Assembly (NCBI RefSeq): GCF_010907035.1
Contig: NZ_QUMK01000003.1
Location: 1-64,000, forward strand
Direction: 5' to 3'
Length of the DNA stretch: 64,000 nucleotides
From: Rhodopseudomonas sp. BR0M22
GTDB lineage: Bacteria > Pseudomonadota > Alphaproteobacteria > Rhizobiales > Xanthobacteraceae
The notes beneath the pieces are model-generated. The model was not told where the DNA came from and did not search any database. It worked only from the letters and a program-made list of their open reading frames with translations. Both the position numbers and the translations under genes were made by a program. Below, piece after piece: positions 1,742 through 10,923 of the stretch; positions within the stretch are counted from its first letter, which is position 1; each line of letters opens with the position of its first letter.

Positions 1742-2145
1742 CGGGTCGATTGATCTTCAAGCCGGCTCGATCATTTGTCGGTTTCTCGTGCCGCCTCGCG
1801 GCCAGTTGGTTCCAGCCTAGCGGCTTTTTCCGAGGATGACGATTCGTCTTCGCGCTGCCCGCAGCCGGATGCGACATTCTCGTATTGCGCGCGCTGCGTG
1901 TATCGCTGTTGGCGGCGGTTCGGTGGCCCGACGAGGGCGCCGCGTGCGGTTTTGAGACGCAAGGTCAAAGGAAAGCGTCGCCGTCAACCTGAATCCAAAC
2001 GTTCTGCTCTGTCGCGATGCGTTCGCACCGAATTAGAACGGGACGAACACCGCGGCGGAGTGCTCATCGATCAGTTCGCCGACCGGAGATAACAGACGGC
2101 TGCGCCGGCGGGAGTGGCGCATGCCGAACTAGCAAGGGGAAGTCC
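1742..2145. other. Intergenic region between divergent regulator and autotransporter
   Basis: About 400 bases with no supportable gene. It holds the divergent promoters of the AraC-type regulator and the subtilase autotransporter. I saw no convincing sigma-70 boxes, palindrome or RNA element. Reading frames that run upstream of the autotransporter start through this stretch lack protein-like character. Confidence 0.5.
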
Positions 2146-5100
2146 GTGAGCACCGTGGGGCGTTTTCGTCATCTCTCGTCGCTGCTGTTGTGTACGACGT
2201 TTCTTGTCAGTGCTCCGGTGTCGGCGGCTTTGTATGCGGCCGAGTCGGCAGCCAAGCCGCGATCGATCGCAAAGTCGGCGTTGTCGCCCGAGATCAAGGC
2301 GCAGTTCGCCGAAGCGATGCGGCAGGGCGAGCGTGCGCTGATCGCACAGGCTTACGACAGCACGTATCGCGATCCTGGGCTGCGCGACGCGGTGGTGCGC
2401 CACGTCTCCGCGCTGGCGCCGACGGCGCTGCGCGATGTCACGACCGCCGCCGATCTCGGCGTGCTCACCTCCGGGCAGCGGATGATGCTTGCGCCGAACG
2501 CCGCGCAGGTCCTTGCGACTCGCACCGCCTCCGCTTCGGGGCTGAGCGCGTCGTCGTACCAGAACGTCGCGATGGCGGCGAACAACTCGCCGAACCTGCC
2601 GAGCCCGCTGCCGTCCACGGCGCAGCAGACCTGGAACCTCGATCTGATCGGCGCGCAGGGAGCTTACAATCGCGGCTTCACCGGCGCCGGCGTCACCGTC
2701 ACGGTTGCCGATACCGGGTTCGATACCACCAATGCCGGCCTGATCAACAAGCTGCGGACCAATCTCGGCAGGAACTACGTCTACAGGGACGGCACGACGT
2801 ACGATCCCACCGAGCTGACGCCACTGACGCCGACCGACATTCACGGCTCGCACGTCGCCGGCATCATCGCGGCAGAGAAGTTCACCAATGTGGACGCCCA
2901 CGGCGTCGCTTACGACGCCAGCGTGATTCCGCTGCGGATTCTGACCGCGACCGGCTATTCGGTGTTCGGCAGCGGCGATTCTTCCGCGAGCGCGCTGAAC
3001 TACTTCGCCGGCCTGTCGGGGACGATGGTCTACAACGCCAGCTATGGCCCCAACTTCAACGGTCTGACCAATCTGACGCAATGGACCATCGGCAATATCG
3101 ATGACGAAGCGGAAGCTGCGCTCAACGCGCTGAAGGCCGGCAAGATCGTCGTCGCCGCCAACGGCAACGATCGCGGTTCCAACCCGCTCGCGGCGCGCAA
3201 TCCGTCCGGTCTGGCGCTGCTGCCGTTCCTCAATCCGGCTCACGCCGGGCTCGGCGTCTACGACGATCAGGGCCAGAAGATCGACGCCACCGCGCTTCAG
3301 CATCAGGATGGCCAACTCATCGCCGTGATGTCGGTCGGCATCACCAAGGCGCCTGCCTGGTACTCGAACCTCTGCGGCGTCACCGCAAGCTGGTGCGTCG
3401 CCGCGCCCGGTGGTGACGATCGTACCGGGGCCGAGGTGTACTCGACGGTCCCCGATAACACCTACGCGTTCGAATCCGGCACCTCGATGGCCGCGCCGAC
3501 GGTGTCGGGAGCGATTGCCGTGCTGATCCAGGCCAATCCGAGCTACAACGCGCAGGACCTGTCGCGCCTGCTGTTCTCGACCACGGAAGATCTCGGCGCG
3601 CCCGGCGTCGATGCCGTGTTCGGTTACGGTCTGATCCGGCTCGATCGCGCCACCGACGGGCCGACCACGCTCGCCGCCAACACGGCGGTGTCGGTCGCCG
3701 CCGATCAAACCACCTACTGGAGCCGGCTGCTCACCACCGACGGCGACTTCTCCAAAGTCGGCACCGGTATTCTGAGCGTCTCCGGCCGCACCAACGCCGG
3801 CGGCAATGTGTTCGCTCAGCTCGGCACGCTCGCCGTCGACGGCACGCTGACGATGTCTGCGGGCCATCGCCTCGAAGTGGCGCAGCCTGCGACCCTGGCC
3901 GGCTTTGGTACCATCGCCGGCGACACGGTGATCGCGGGCACGCTGTCGCCGGGCAAGATGGCCAATATCGGCGATCTGGTGAGTAACAATGTGGTGCCGG
4001 CCGGCACCGTGCTGAACGGCAACTCGGTCGGCTCGCTGACCTTCAACGGCAACGTCACGCTGACCGCAACGGCCAATACCAGGATCGATATCGACGGCTC
4101 GCTGATCGTGCCCGGCGGCCCCGGCACCTACGACAAGATCTACGTCACCGGCGCCGGCAATGTGTTCTACGCGGCCGGCTCGCTGACCCCGGTGCTGCGC
4201 GGCAGCGTCGGCACCGTGAGCAACTACACGCCGGCGATCGGCACCGAATTCGCCTTCGTGCAGGCGACCAACGGCGCCAGCACCGCGGGCAGTTTCTCCA
4301 ATCTGGTGCAGCCGACCTCGGGGCTGCCGGCCAACGGCCGGTTCGACCTGATCTACAGCCCGACCTCGATCACGCTGGTGGTGACCCCGGCGAGCTTCAG
4401 CCAGCTCGCCGATGCCGACAAGCTCGCTCCGACGCAACAGTCGATCGCCCGCATTCTCGACAAGGAACGCGCAGCCTCCGGCGAGATGCCGACCGCCAAC
4501 GAGAAGGCGCTGTACGACGCGCTGTACAAGCTCGACACCCAGGCGCAGTTCGACAAGGCGCTCGATCAGCTCGCCGGGCCCGGCCAGCCGGCAATGGCGA
4601 GCGCGCCGCTGCAGGCGTTCACCGGCTTCCTCGGTGCGATCGGCGACCGCCAGGACGCGCTGACGTCCGGCAGCGAAATCGGCCAGAATGGCACCGCGCA
4701 GTCGTTCGCCTTGTCCTATGCGGGGCGCAACACGATGAGCGCCGGCACCAGTTCGGCAATGAATGCGTTCGCCAGCATCTCGCCGGCCGAGCGGGTGCAG
4801 GACGGCTGGTCGGTGTGGGGCCAGGGCTTTGGCCGCAACAGCCGGGTCGGTGACAGCGATGGTCTGTCGGGCTCGAAGGCGGTCAGCGCCGGTTTCGCGG
4901 TCGGTGCCGATCGCCGGTTCTCGAACAGCTTCAGCGCCGGCGGCGCGTTCGGCTATACGCGCACCACCGCGACCAGCACCGACATGCAGGGCACCGTCGA
5001 TACTTACGCCGGCGCTGCCTATGCGAGCTGGACGCCGGGCGCCGCCGTGCTCGATGTCCGGATCGCGGCCGGTCCGAGCCAGATGGCGACCAGCCGCCAG

Positions 5101-5616
5101 ATCCTGCTGTCGCCGACCAGCCTGCAGGGCAGCGCCAATGGCGTCGGCGTCGGCACCACGTTCGAGGCCGGCTATCGGTTCGCGATGGGGCACGACGTGA
5201 CGCTGAAGCCGTTCGTCGGCCTGGCCTGGCAGGGCTTCCGCCGCGATGCCTACAGCGAAAGCCAGCTGCCGATCGGCCTCGTCTACGCGGCACGGACCTA
5301 CGACAAGCTGACCTCCACGGTCGGCGCGGCGGTGAGCGGGCGGCTGCGGACCATCGACGGCACCACACTGGCGCCGGAGCTGAAGGTCGGCTGGGGCTAC
5401 GATCTGCGCGACACCACGCTGGTCAGCGAAGCTGCGCTGCTCGACGAAGCGTTCCTGGTCGATGCGGCGCAGCCGGGTCGCAACGCGGCGCTGGTCGGCG
5501 CCAAATTGTCCGGCTGGCGCACCGAGACGTTCCGGTTGTTCGCCGCCTATAGCGGCGAATTCCGCAGCAACGCCACCAGCCACCAGGTCTCCGCCGGCGC
5601 CCGCGTCAACTGGTAA
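2146..5616 (+). CDS. Autotransporter subtilisin-like serine protease (S8 family, type V secretion)
   Basis: A protein of 1156 residues. The GTG at 2146 is chosen because AAGGGGA lies just upstream and the protein then opens with a signal peptide (FRHLSSLLLCTTFLVSAPVSA). The protease domain carries the full triad: Asp189 in VADTGFD, His233 in HGSHVAG and Ser447 in SGTSMAAP. A passenger stalk follows, with beta-helix repeats near residues 535-600 (TGILSVSGRTNAGG, LAVDGTLTMSAG). From about residue 885 there is an autotransporter beta-barrel ending in a terminal tryptophan (SAGARVNW). Known relatives export the protease through their own barrel to the cell surface. The substrate is unknown. A strong terminator follows, so it is probably a single-gene transcript. 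Confidence 0.93.
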   Translation: MSTVGRFRHLSSLLLCTTFLVSAPVSAALYAAESAAKPRSIAKSALSPEIKAQFAEAMRQGERALIAQAYDSTYRDPGLRDAVVRHVSALAPTALRDVTTAADLGVLTSGQRMMLAPNAAQVLATRTASASGLSASSYQNVAMAANNSPNLPSPLPSTAQQTWNLDLIGAQGAYNRGFTGAGVTVTVADTGFDTTNAGLINKLRTNLGRNYVYRDGTTYDPTELTPLTPTDIHGSHVAGIIAAEKFTNVDAHGVAYDASVIPLRILTATGYSVFGSGDSSASALNYFAGLSGTMVYNASYGPNFNGLTNLTQWTIGNIDDEAEAALNALKAGKIVVAANGNDRGSNPLAARNPSGLALLPFLNPAHAGLGVYDDQGQKIDATALQHQDGQLIAVMSVGITKAPAWYSNLCGVTASWCVAAPGGDDRTGAEVYSTVPDNTYAFESGTSMAAPTVSGAIAVLIQANPSYNAQDLSRLLFSTTEDLGAPGVDAVFGYGLIRLDRATDGPTTLAANTAVSVAADQTTYWSRLLTTDGDFSKVGTGILSVSGRTNAGGNVFAQLGTLAVDGTLTMSAGHRLEVAQPATLAGFGTIAGDTVIAGTLSPGKMANIGDLVSNNVVPAGTVLNGNSVGSLTFNGNVTLTATANTRIDIDGSLIVPGGPGTYDKIYVTGAGNVFYAAGSLTPVLRGSVGTVSNYTPAIGTEFAFVQATNGASTAGSFSNLVQPTSGLPANGRFDLIYSPTSITLVVTPASFSQLADADKLAPTQQSIARILDKERAASGEMPTANEKALYDALYKLDTQAQFDKALDQLAGPGQPAMASAPLQAFTGFLGAIGDRQDALTSGSEIGQNGTAQSFALSYAGRNTMSAGTSSAMNAFASISPAERVQDGWSVWGQGFGRNSRVGDSDGLSGSKAVSAGFAVGADRRFSNSFSAGGAFGYTRTTATSTDMQGTVDTYAGAAYASWTPGAAVLDVRIAAGPSQMATSRQILLSPTSLQGSANGVGVGTTFEAGYRFAMGHDVTLKPFVGLAWQGFRRDAYSESQLPIGLVYAARTYDKLTSTVGAAVSGRLRTIDGTTLAPELKVGWGYDLRDTTLVSEAALLDEAFLVDAAQPGRNAALVGAKLSGWRTETFRLFAAYSGEFRSNATSHQVSAGARVNW

Positions 5617-5642
5617 GCCAACTACGTAGAGTGCATGCAAAG

Positions 5643-5923: not shown

Positions 5924-8233
<2,310 letters not shown>

Positions 8234-8437
8234 ACGTGGCCCCCACCAAGTATCCGTCTGCCCCGTTCGAGCAGCGAGCGCCGTTCGAATCACAGTTAGG
8301 ATTTGAATCGACTTTTAGCGGGCTGTCGAGAGTCAACGATTCCGGGGGTCTGAAAAATCCTTATCCAAAGGTGAATCGCGCCGACATTTTTTCGTGAGTC
8401 GAGTCCGAAACGAGAACGGCTGCGGCGTGCGCAGCGC

Positions 8438-9817
8438 TCAATCGGCGTTCGGCGGCTCGGCGTGACTGATCACGCGCTTCACGCTCGGGAATTCGGCACG
8501 CAGGCGACGCTCGATCTCGTCGACATGATCGTGCACGGCGATCACGCTCATCGACGGATCGGCGTAGCAGTGGAAGTTGACGATCTCGCCGGCCTCGGTG
8601 TCGCGGACGCGGACGCTGTGGACGTCGTGGATCGCGCCGTTGCGGGTGAGATTGTTCAGTGCCGTGCGGATCTCCGCGACGCGCGACGGCGCCGCGTCGT
8701 AACCTTGCGGCAGTTCGGGCTCCAGCGGCTCGATATGGGTGTCGACTTCGACGTCGGTGCCGAAATCCTCGCGGATGTGATCCTCGAGCCGGTGCGCGAT
8801 GTCGTGGGCGTCGATCAGCGGCATCTCGCCGTCGACCTCGAGATCGATGCTGACGATCAGCTTGTGGCCGAGATCGTGCACCGTGACGTGATGCACGGCG
8901 AGGCCGGAATTGCGCGCGATCACCATGATGCGCTCGCGCACGCTTTCATTGTCGCGGGCCACCGGAATTGCCGTGAAGGTGAGGTCGGCATCGCCGAACT
9001 CGGCGGTGAGCGATTCCTGGGCCTTGCGATTGATCTCGTCGATGCGGTCGATCGGATAGGTGCGGGGCACTTCGACCAGGGCGTCGATGAAATGCGTCGG
9101 GCCGACCATGCGGGTGCGCAGCCGCTCGATGCCGACCACGCCCGGCACAGCCGTGATGACGTCGCGCGCCTTCTCCGACACGCCGTCCGGCGCGCGGTCG
9201 AGCAGAGTCTGGATCGTCGAGCGGCCGAGCCGCAGGCCGAGGATCGAGACGATCGCCGCGACGCCGATCGCCGCGGCGGCGTCGCCCCAGGCGAAGCCGA
9301 AAGCCGACAAGCTCAGGCCGGCGATCACCGCGAACGAGCTGAGCACGTCGGAGCCGAAATGCAACGCGTCGGCGGCCAGCGCCTGGCTTTTGGTGGCGAC
9401 CGCGGTCCGATGCAGCGCCCAGGCACGCCACAGATTGACGACGATGTCGACGCCGAGAATTGCGAAGGCCAGATAGGAGAAGGTCGGCGGAGTCGAGCCT
9501 TCGCTCAGCCGGCTGTAGGCTTCGACCAGGATGCCGCCGGCCAGAACATAGAGCAGGGCGATCACGCCGAGCGCCGACAGACTCTCGATCTTGCCGTGGC
9601 CGTAGTGATGCGCGTCGTCGGCCGGCCGGTCCGAGATCCGCACCACGAACCAGGTGATGATGGTGGCGACCAGATCGATCGAGCTGTGCAGCGCTTCGGA
9701 GATCAGCGCCAGCGAGCCGATGGCGATGCCGATGGCGAATTTCGCCGCCGCCATGCTCGCACTCGCGACGACGGAGATCGCGGCCACTCGCGATTTGGTG
9801 CTGGCGATATCGTTCAT
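8438..9817 (-). CDS. Cation diffusion facilitator (CDF) metal efflux transporter with three C-terminal domains
   Basis: 459 residues, longer than the usual 300 or so. About residues 10-205 form the six-helix membrane part. The metal-site motifs are HSSID in helix II and HFGSD in helix V, an HxxxD/HxxxD pair that is typical of zinc transporters. The remainder appears to contain three consecutive cation-efflux cytoplasmic domains: about 217-290, 291-377 and 378-459, each beginning with a helix and passing through an alternating beta strand such as HFIDALVEVP, KLIVSIDLEVDG and EIVNFHCYADPS. The family exports divalent metals by proton antiport as a homodimer. Zinc is the likely substrate, but iron, cobalt or manganese are possible. 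Confidence 0.92.
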   Translation of the reverse strand: MNDIASTKSRVAAISVVASASMAAAKFAIGIAIGSLALISEALHSSIDLVATIITWFVVRISDRPADDAHHYGHGKIESLSALGVIALLYVLAGGILVEAYSRLSEGSTPPTFSYLAFAILGVDIVVNLWRAWALHRTAVATKSQALAADALHFGSDVLSSFAVIAGLSLSAFGFAWGDAAAAIGVAAIVSILGLRLGRSTIQTLLDRAPDGVSEKARDVITAVPGVVGIERLRTRMVGPTHFIDALVEVPRTYPIDRIDEINRKAQESLTAEFGDADLTFTAIPVARDNESVRERIMVIARNSGLAVHHVTVHDLGHKLIVSIDLEVDGEMPLIDAHDIAHRLEDHIREDFGTDVEVDTHIEPLEPELPQGYDAAPSRVAEIRTALNNLTRNGAIHDVHSVRVRDTEAGEIVNFHCYADPSMSVIAVHDHVDEIERRLRAEFPSVKRVISHAEPPNAD

Positions 9818-9948
9818 AGCGCGGGATTTAGCAGTCTCGTGCGACGCCGGAAAGGCACCGGATCCGTGACGCTGGTGGGTAACGGGTCCGTTCGCACAAG
9901 CTGCGAATTAGTTTCAATTAAGATGGCCGTGGCCGGTGCGAAACCGGC

Positions 9949-10923
9949 TCAGATCGTCACCACGATCTTGCCGAAATGGCGATTGGCTTCCATGTGCGCG
10001 AACGCGGCGCCGATCTCGGCGAACGGGAACACCTTGTCGATCGGTAGCTTCAGGCTGCGCGATTCGATCGCCGGCCAGATGTCGCCCCGGACTTGGCGGA
10101 AGATCTCGCGGATCTCCTCGATGCTGCGGCTGCGGAAGGTGACGCCGACATAGTCGATCCGGCGCGCGGCATGCAGATCGAAGTTGAACTCGGCATGGGT
10201 GCCGCCGAGCCGGCCGACATTGACGATGCGGCCGAGCACGCGGGTGGCGGCGAGGTTCTGATTGGCGACCTTGCCGGAGACCTGGTCGATCACGAGGTCG
10301 ACGCCGGCACCGCCGGTCGCGGCGAGCACCTGATCGACCCAGCCGTCGCCGGAGGAATCGATCGCCAGATCGGCGCCGAACTGGTGCAGCTTGTCGCGCC
10401 GGCCCTTGTCGGTCGACGAGCCGATCACCGTGCGGGCGCCCTTCAGCTTGGCGATTTGCATCGCCATCAGCCCGACGCCGGAGCTGGCGCCTTGCACCAG
10501 CACCGATTGGCCGGAGCGCAGCTTGCCGATCGCCATGACCGCGTTGTGCATCGTGGTGAGGGCGACCGGCAGGGTGGCGGCGTCCTCGAAGCTCATCTTG
10601 TCCGGGATCGGCAGCAGCCGGCCGTGGTCGGCGAGGGTGTACTCGCCGAACGCGCCGGTGCCGGAGCCCATCACCCGGTCGCCGACCTTGCAGCCATAGG
10701 CCTCGTCGCCGACCGCTTCGATTTCGCCGGCGAACTCCATGCCGAGTACGGCGCCGACGCCCCCGGCGGCGCCGTGGGCGTGGCCCTTGGTCATGCCGAG
10801 GTCGGCGCGGTTGAGCCCGCAGGCGCGGACCCGGATCAGGACTTGCGGACCTTTCGGCGCCGCCGGCTTGTCGACTTCGGTGATGGCGGCGCCGGCGGCG
10901 CCGTAGACATAGGCTTTCATCAC
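9949..10923 (-). CDS. Zinc-independent NADPH:quinone oxidoreductase (medium-chain dehydrogenase family)
   Basis: 324 residues. The N-terminal GroES-like fold opens with MKAYVYGAAGAAITEVDKP and contains GLNRADL. The nucleotide-binding fold has GASSGVGLMAMQIAK near residue 140-155. The cysteine ligands of zinc-dependent alcohol dehydrogenases are absent, which places it with the QOR/zeta-crystallin branch. Family members reduce quinones or alpha,beta-unsaturated carbonyls with NADPH. AGGACGAG precedes the ATG. It is the last gene of a minus-strand run, 42 bases after the flavin oxidoreductase stop, so the two are probably cotranscribed. The physiological substrate cannot be read from the sequence. 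Confidence 0.88.
   Translation of the reverse strand: MMKAYVYGAAGAAITEVDKPAAPKGPQVLIRVRACGLNRADLGMTKGHAHGAAGGVGAVLGMEFAGEIEAVGDEAYGCKVGDRVMGSGTGAFGEYTLADHGRLLPIPDKMSFEDAATLPVALTTMHNAVMAIGKLRSGQSVLVQGASSGVGLMAMQIAKLKGARTVIGSSTDKGRRDKLHQFGADLAIDSSGDGWVDQVLAATGGAGVDLVIDQVSGKVANQNLAATRVLGRIVNVGRLGGTHAEFNFDLHAARRIDYVGVTFRSRSIEEIREIFRQVRGDIWPAIESRSLKLPIDKVFPFAEIGAAFAHMEANRHFGKIVVTI

Follow-up and report, generated by a model that had tools for sequence, protein, structure and literature searches.

A CDF transporter usually carries exactly one copy of the ZT_dimer domain, here called the C-terminal domain (CTD), behind its membrane part. In the Zn2+/H+ antiporter FieF/YiiP, the metal site of this domain, site C, is composed of His232, His248, His283, and Asp285 together with His261 of the neighboring domain (PMC6465983, in part), and a cryo-EM study gave 33 nM at pH 7 for YiiP site C (PMC10617992, in part). 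Whether the CTD glues the dimer together, senses metal, or does both is a matter of debate, and a section heading of PMC6465983 poses this very question. Both jobs usually share one domain.

We analyzed a window of 64,000 nucleotides, the beginning of contig NZ_QUMK01000003.1 of Rhodopseudomonas sp. BR0M22, which contains a CDF gene that departs from this layout. In the list of open reading frames, the gene reads along the minus strand, left unstated in the original prediction, from 9817 down to 8438, and its product has a single six-helix CDF membrane part with three ZT_dimer domains behind it, designated CTD1, CTD2, and CTD3. Its features are as follows.

8438..9817, minus strand: gene for the CDF transporter with three CTDs (tri-CTD), 459 amino acids plus stop; TIGR01297 (CDF), 243.7 bits
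9200..9778, minus strand: six-helix Cation_efflux membrane domain, residues about 14–206; PF01545 over the cut-off, six helices in the model
9347..9688, minus strand: ligands of transport site A, H44 and D48 (TM2) and H153 and D157 (TM5), HDHD, from the homologue alignment
9596..9619, minus strand: equivalents of site B, D67, H70, and H74, in the TM2–TM3 loop, from the alignment with YiiP site B
8954..9181, minus strand: CTD1, residues about 213–288; 47.6 bits to PF16916, predicted CTD fold, site-C ligands lost (ELDTI)
8726..8947, minus strand: CTD2, residues about 291–364; 53.8 bits, ligands H309, D325, H338, H361, and E363, with H310 alongside
8690..8725, minus strand: linker joining CTD2 to CTD3, residues about 365–376, from the secondary structure of the model; pLDDT <50 at 367–371
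8447..8689, minus strand: CTD3, residues about 377–457; 48.4 bits, ligands H400, H416, H429, H452, and E454

Membership of the CDF superfamily was evident from the scores against TIGR01297 (cut-off 82.35) and PF01545 (136.6 bits; cut-off 26.6). A Pfam-A scan of the whole protein placed Cation_efflux at residues 14–206 (E 1.2e-39) and ZT_dimer in three stretches (E 2.1e-38), and when the three segments were scanned singly, residues 210–287, 287–374, and 373–459 scored 47.6, 53.8, and 48.4 bits, respectively, all above the ZT_dimer (PF16916) gathering score of 26.7 bits. The protein therefore does not match the usual layout with one ZT_dimer copy. The original prediction of three tandem CTDs, which had proposed such a profile search of each segment, was borne out by these matches as well as by the conservation and predicted folds described below; its domain boundaries (217–290, 291–377, and 378–459) were off by no more than a few residues, apart from residues 365–376, which form a linker. 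Chance or a sequence artefact was ruled out as the origin of the pattern by the three separate Pfam matches together with the conservation. A six-frame search of the same genome recovered the identical three ZT_dimer places within one 489-amino-acid open frame and one more ZT_dimer match in a different protein. The genome has four Cation_efflux matches altogether. The other ZT_dimer protein (L134, G000:C30) is a CDF with a His-rich start and one ZT_dimer match. Very long shadow open reading frames at 2071–5640 and 8462–10153 of the window face likely genes, as expected at high GC, and were not taken to be genes.

All three segments are predicted to adopt the CDF C-terminal fold. The full-length AlphaFold2 model, built from 17 aligned sequences (mean pLDDT 77.7), contained three successive alpha-beta-beta-alpha-beta units, which run from helix 213–222 to strand 277–286, from helix 293–303 to strand 356–364, and from helix 377–391 to strand 446–454. 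A second model covered residues 286–459 (mean pLDDT 79.8). Both are single-chain predictions, in which pTM values of 0.45 (full length) and 0.55 (residues 286–459) do not fix the packing of the domains. Structural comparison with VIA-align matched residues 210–288 (CTD1) to the MamM CTD (PDB ID: 3w5y; Z 13.1, rmsd 1.6, 79 aligned), CTD2 of the second model to the MamB CTD (6qfj; Z 12.5, rmsd 1.7, 81 aligned), and CTD3 in both models (residues 372–459 in the full-length one) to the zinc-bound CzrB CTD (3byr; Z 13.4–13.5, rmsd 1.8–1.9, 85–86 aligned). The original prediction hinged on residues 291–459 having a CDF CTD fold, and in these models both domains of that region matched CTDs.

We then focused on the metal-binding residues. 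The three CTDs were aligned to E. coli FieF, with H232, H248, H261, H283, and D285 (HHHHD) as the reference for site C. The equivalent residues were E231, L247, D260, T282, and I284 in CTD1 (ELDTI); H309, D325, H338, H361, and E363 in CTD2 (HDHHE); and H400, H416, H429, H452, and E454 in CTD3 (HHHHE). Conservation was assessed in 92 distinct homologues with 38–100% identity to the query, obtained from 106 matching open reading frames by merging 14 that had the same last 250 residues; the set includes the query's own copy and two proteins cut at contig ends (L016 and L057). All ten ligands of CTD2 and CTD3 were retained in 90 of these 92, with Asp accepted at the CTD2 position equivalent to H248 and Asp as well as Glu accepted at those equivalent to D285. 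The exceptions were L059, in which H361 is changed to Q and H429 to Y, and a broken copy, L069, in which six ligands are missing. The latter (G650:C195) is divergent and interrupted by an in-frame stop, and its CTD2 His pair is also gone. H310, beside H309, was likewise conserved in 90/92, and the H261 equivalents H338 and H429 were retained in 92/92 and 90/92, respectively. The five CTD1 positions were variable among the 92 homologues, with T282 (63/92) and E231 (58/92) fairly steady, and at none of them was His the commonest residue. For comparison, HHHHD or HHHHE was read in 33 of 34 rows comprising FieF and 33 single or first CTDs, in which L118 and L147 are one protein and from which the weaker rows L128, L132, L146, and L154 were left out; the exception was L129.

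The distribution of invariant positions among 23 members was uneven: 57 of 212 in the membrane part, 8 of 76 in CTD1, 24 of 78 in CTD2, and 17 of 86 in CTD3. Of all the parts, CTD1 thus varies most freely and CTD2 is under the tightest constraint, a pattern unlike that of an idle appendix. From the ligand sets we infer that CTD2 and CTD3 bind metal, and with Asp (D325) in place of the H248 equivalent, the CTD2 site may have another geometry or take another metal. The His-rich stretches of CTD2 and CTD3 to which the original prediction had pointed do include the conserved H309, H310, H338, and H429 (23/23), but the other His residues there vary (H314 in 18/23; H318, H342, H347, and H431 in fewer), and the conserved H361, H400, H416, and H452 fall outside these stretches. 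The idea of added metal sites is supported by the conserved ligand sets of CTD2 and CTD3 and can be made more precise in one respect: the sites are not simply extra, because the normal site of CTD1 is gone. Loss of ligands in CTD1 and their retention in CTD2 and CTD3 suggest that holding the dimer and sensing metal are split between domains.

In the membrane part, the H/DxxxD pairs of TM2 and TM5 are present as H44/D48 and H153/D157, and HDHD was found in 91/92 homologues, the lone exception being L016, which is truncated at a contig edge. K76 (91/92) and D207 (92/92) are also conserved, and we take these two residues to be the charge interlock that joins the membrane part to the CTD in YiiP. 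D67, H70, and H74, each conserved in 91/92, correspond to site B of YiiP (D70/H73/H77; PMC10617992, in part). An HDHD site A is tied to zinc selectivity in CDFs (PMC6465983, in part) and is the hallmark of the Zn-CDF group; because the protein has this site, zinc is its presumed substrate. No measured Zn2+ transport by a tri-CTD member was among the matches listed in the open-access literature.

The three-CTD layout is widespread in the family. A near-full match to CTD1–3 of the query (E 1.1e-60 or better) was found in 68 of 100 same-family genomes, our own included; 14 of the remaining genomes had weak partial matches and 18 had no match at E 0.001. In wider surveys, which scored up to nine candidates per genome and thus give lower bounds, matches came from at least 7 of the 289 class genomes (profile, E 1e-12) and at least 13 of the 299 phylum genomes, Pseudomonadota being the one phylum sampled. 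Six of the class matches, including our own, span CTD1 to CTD3, and the seventh (G111) is a 324-amino-acid single-CTD protein. Of the phylum matches, 11 (own included) span CTD1 to CTD3, the other two are the broken copy L069 and G111, and all 13 lie within the same class. The 17 loci with named records belong to Rhodopseudomonas, Bradyrhizobium, and Xanthobacteraceae or Hyphomicrobiaceae MAGs, with L016 cut at its contig edge; the nearest named relatives are Rhodopseudomonas (top identity 96%). Tri-CTD genes are also carried by two Azospirillum plasmids (43–44% identity), where the gene lies between ABC transporter genes, whose ATP-binding part is annotated as nitrate/sulfonate/bicarbonate, and an overlapping MgtC/SapB gene (L022 and L023). 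A plasmid of Xanthobacter dioxanivorans (L075:3788–4612) bears a remnant resembling CTD2–CTD3 without a membrane part, annotated as 'cation transporter dimerization domain-containing protein'; it adjoins mercury-resistance genes, with a Tn3 family transposase fairly near.

Directly downstream of the CDF gene, at 5924–8293 of the window, the translation reads as a likely sensor histidine kinase. Of the 19 named loci (L005–L023), 16 had a sensor kinase in the flanking sequence examined, directly downstream in 14 (L005–L017 and L020; Rhodopseudomonas and Bradyrhizobium) and farther downstream in L018 (4.3 kb) and L021 (2.9 kb); the flanks of L019, L022, and L023 had none. We read this pairing as synteny, not function. 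A metal operon was considered and rejected: as read from translations, the neighbors are the sensor kinase and a quinone-oxidoreductase-like gene, and no metal-related one was recognized.

To place the domain copies relative to one another, a tree of 77 CTDs was examined, built on 80-amino-acid domains and hence weak between groups. CTD1, CTD2, and CTD3 of 11 members formed separate clades with support of 0.994, 0.923, and 1.0, respectively, and CTD3 was placed near FieF-type CTDs, a placement subject to this weakness between groups. The other ZT_dimer protein of the genome had no match to the CTD profile and was left out. A recent triplication within this genome is countered by each CTD forming its own clade. 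The separate clades indicate that the copies are old, and the three-domain layout is probably older than the spread of the tri-CTD proteins.

Multi-CTD CDFs may extend beyond this clade. In 8 of 37 CDF open frames from other Pseudomonadota genomes (L135, L136, L139, L140, L141, L142, L144, and L153), the first CTD was followed by another CTD-like match, which was weak (i-E 2.6e-6 to 9.3e-3 against a tiny database); this count represents no rate, since the 37 frames were hand-picked from the top rows of the ZT_dimer survey and long open frames. Pfam found one stretch in L139 and, at the loose limit of E 10, two in L135 and L136. The first CTD reads HHHHD throughout; no more than two of the five ligands are present in the second. 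These proteins resemble the tri-CTD proteins in that another CTD-like unit follows their first CTD, but their ligands lie in the first CTD and are poor in the second, the reverse of the tri-CTD arrangement, so that the two groups may have split the domain's tasks in opposite order.

Taking these data together, we infer that the protein is probably a homodimeric Zn2+/H+ CDF exporter in which CTD1 is a metal-free dimerizer and the sensing sites lie in CTD2 and CTD3. The membrane part would operate as in YiiP, by proton-coupled export that is probably Zn2+-selective. CTD1 would occupy the position of YiiP's single CTD and hold the dimer without bound metal, and CTD2 and CTD3 would be further copies, each with a site-C-type metal site. 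A metal-free CTD1 dimer is plausible, because isolated CTDs dimerize even without metal and the CTD of ZnT7 showed no zinc (PMC10617992, in part). When cytoplasmic metal rises, CTD2 and CTD3 would bind it and close up, and this change, relayed via CTD1 to the membrane part, would switch or tune export. For the alphaproteobacterial clade as a whole, we tentatively propose that, with a metal-free CTD1 holding the dimer, the outer CTDs add up to two more tiers of two-metal sites and make the response to cytoplasmic zinc stepped, or more cooperative than with the single site of YiiP, an idea that we would sooner doubt than assert.

Other roles for the outer domains were weighed against this sensing exporter. 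A serious contender, to which we would give somewhat less than an even chance, is that CTD2 and CTD3 of one chain pair as an intramolecular pseudo-dimer, so that each subunit has its own sensor below the CTD1:CTD1 dimer. Because H261 of YiiP comes from the partner CTD, a CTD2:CTD3 pair would complete its sites within one subunit; both domains retain the equivalent of this partner-donated His, the linker between them measures about 12 residues, and the consistent difference between HDHHE and HHHHE is as in a possible fixed heterotypic pair. The same H261 equivalents, however, suit a homotypic stack of CTD2:CTD2' and CTD3:CTD3' equally, and the two-domain model (pTM 0.55) leaves the arrangement unfixed. 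Alternatively, the extra domains might only stabilize the dimer, with permanent, structural metal. We regard this as unlikely, although it is a live rival because site C of YiiP is argued to stay permanently occupied and to secure dimer stability, both probable there (PMC10617992, in part); a purely structural role would leave unexplained why CTD1 lost its site beside the membrane while the outer CTDs kept theirs.

We consider it rather unlikely that CTD2 and CTD3 serve chiefly to collect metal, which they would buffer or pass to the pump in the manner of the metallochaperone-fold domains of P-type ATPases, and not to act as switches. Full ligand sets are retained in the two extra copies of our protein. 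The CTD fold is itself metallochaperone-like, but the site-C ligands of YiiP form two-metal sites at the CTD–CTD interface and not exposed exchange sites (both from PMC6465983, in part), and no metallochaperone gene was recognized among the translations of the flanking open reading frames. Tandem domain copies can also originate neutrally; that the extra domains stem from a recent or neutral duplication without function, or from a sequence artefact, is nevertheless hardly credible given the layout in 68/100 family genomes, 17 named loci, and two Azospirillum plasmids, the separate clades of old copies, and the complete ligands in 90/92 homologues.

Among known systems, FieF/YiiP (E. coli, Shewanella) aligns with the full length of the membrane part and CTD1 of the sensing exporter proposed here (phmmer E 1.6e-34, residues 12–281), YiiP chains matched the model with VIA Z of 15.2–22.8, and the site B positions and K76/D207 are shared. 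The score against the FieF equivalog NF050169 (184.7 bits) is below the cut-off of 420. The single CTD of FieF/YiiP bears site C as HHHHD, whereas CTD1 of the tri-CTD protein is without it. CzrB of Thermus thermophilus (3byr), the top structural match of CTD3, has an aligned tail of H-x-E-P, as in CTD3, rather than H-x-D-P; its solved fragment contains one CTD per chain, against three here, and full CzrB has a single CTD. The CTDs of MamM and MamB from magnetotactic bacteria match CTD1 and CTD2 (Z 12.5–13.1), and the Mam NCBIfam models score 142–149 bits on the tri-CTD protein, against a cut-off of 350.

Tandem-CTD CDFs were absent from the matches listed in the open-access literature on CDF domain make-up and Rhodopseudomonas zinc efflux; relative to these matches, the parts of the protein are already known, and the number of CTDs and the shifted position of the metal site may be new. 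At site A, YiiP has DDHD (PMC6465983, in part), in contrast to HDHD in the tri-CTD protein. MamM and MamB, which carry iron, have two domains with a single CTD (PMC7170241, in part), and CdfX-type CDFs of Cupriavidus have no CTD at all (PMC11580412, in part), as opposed to three in the tri-CTD protein. CTD numbers in the CDF family thus span at least 0 to 3, and, compared with proteins in which one domain does both jobs, the tri-CTD clade would allow dimer holding and metal sensing to be tested separately in one protein.
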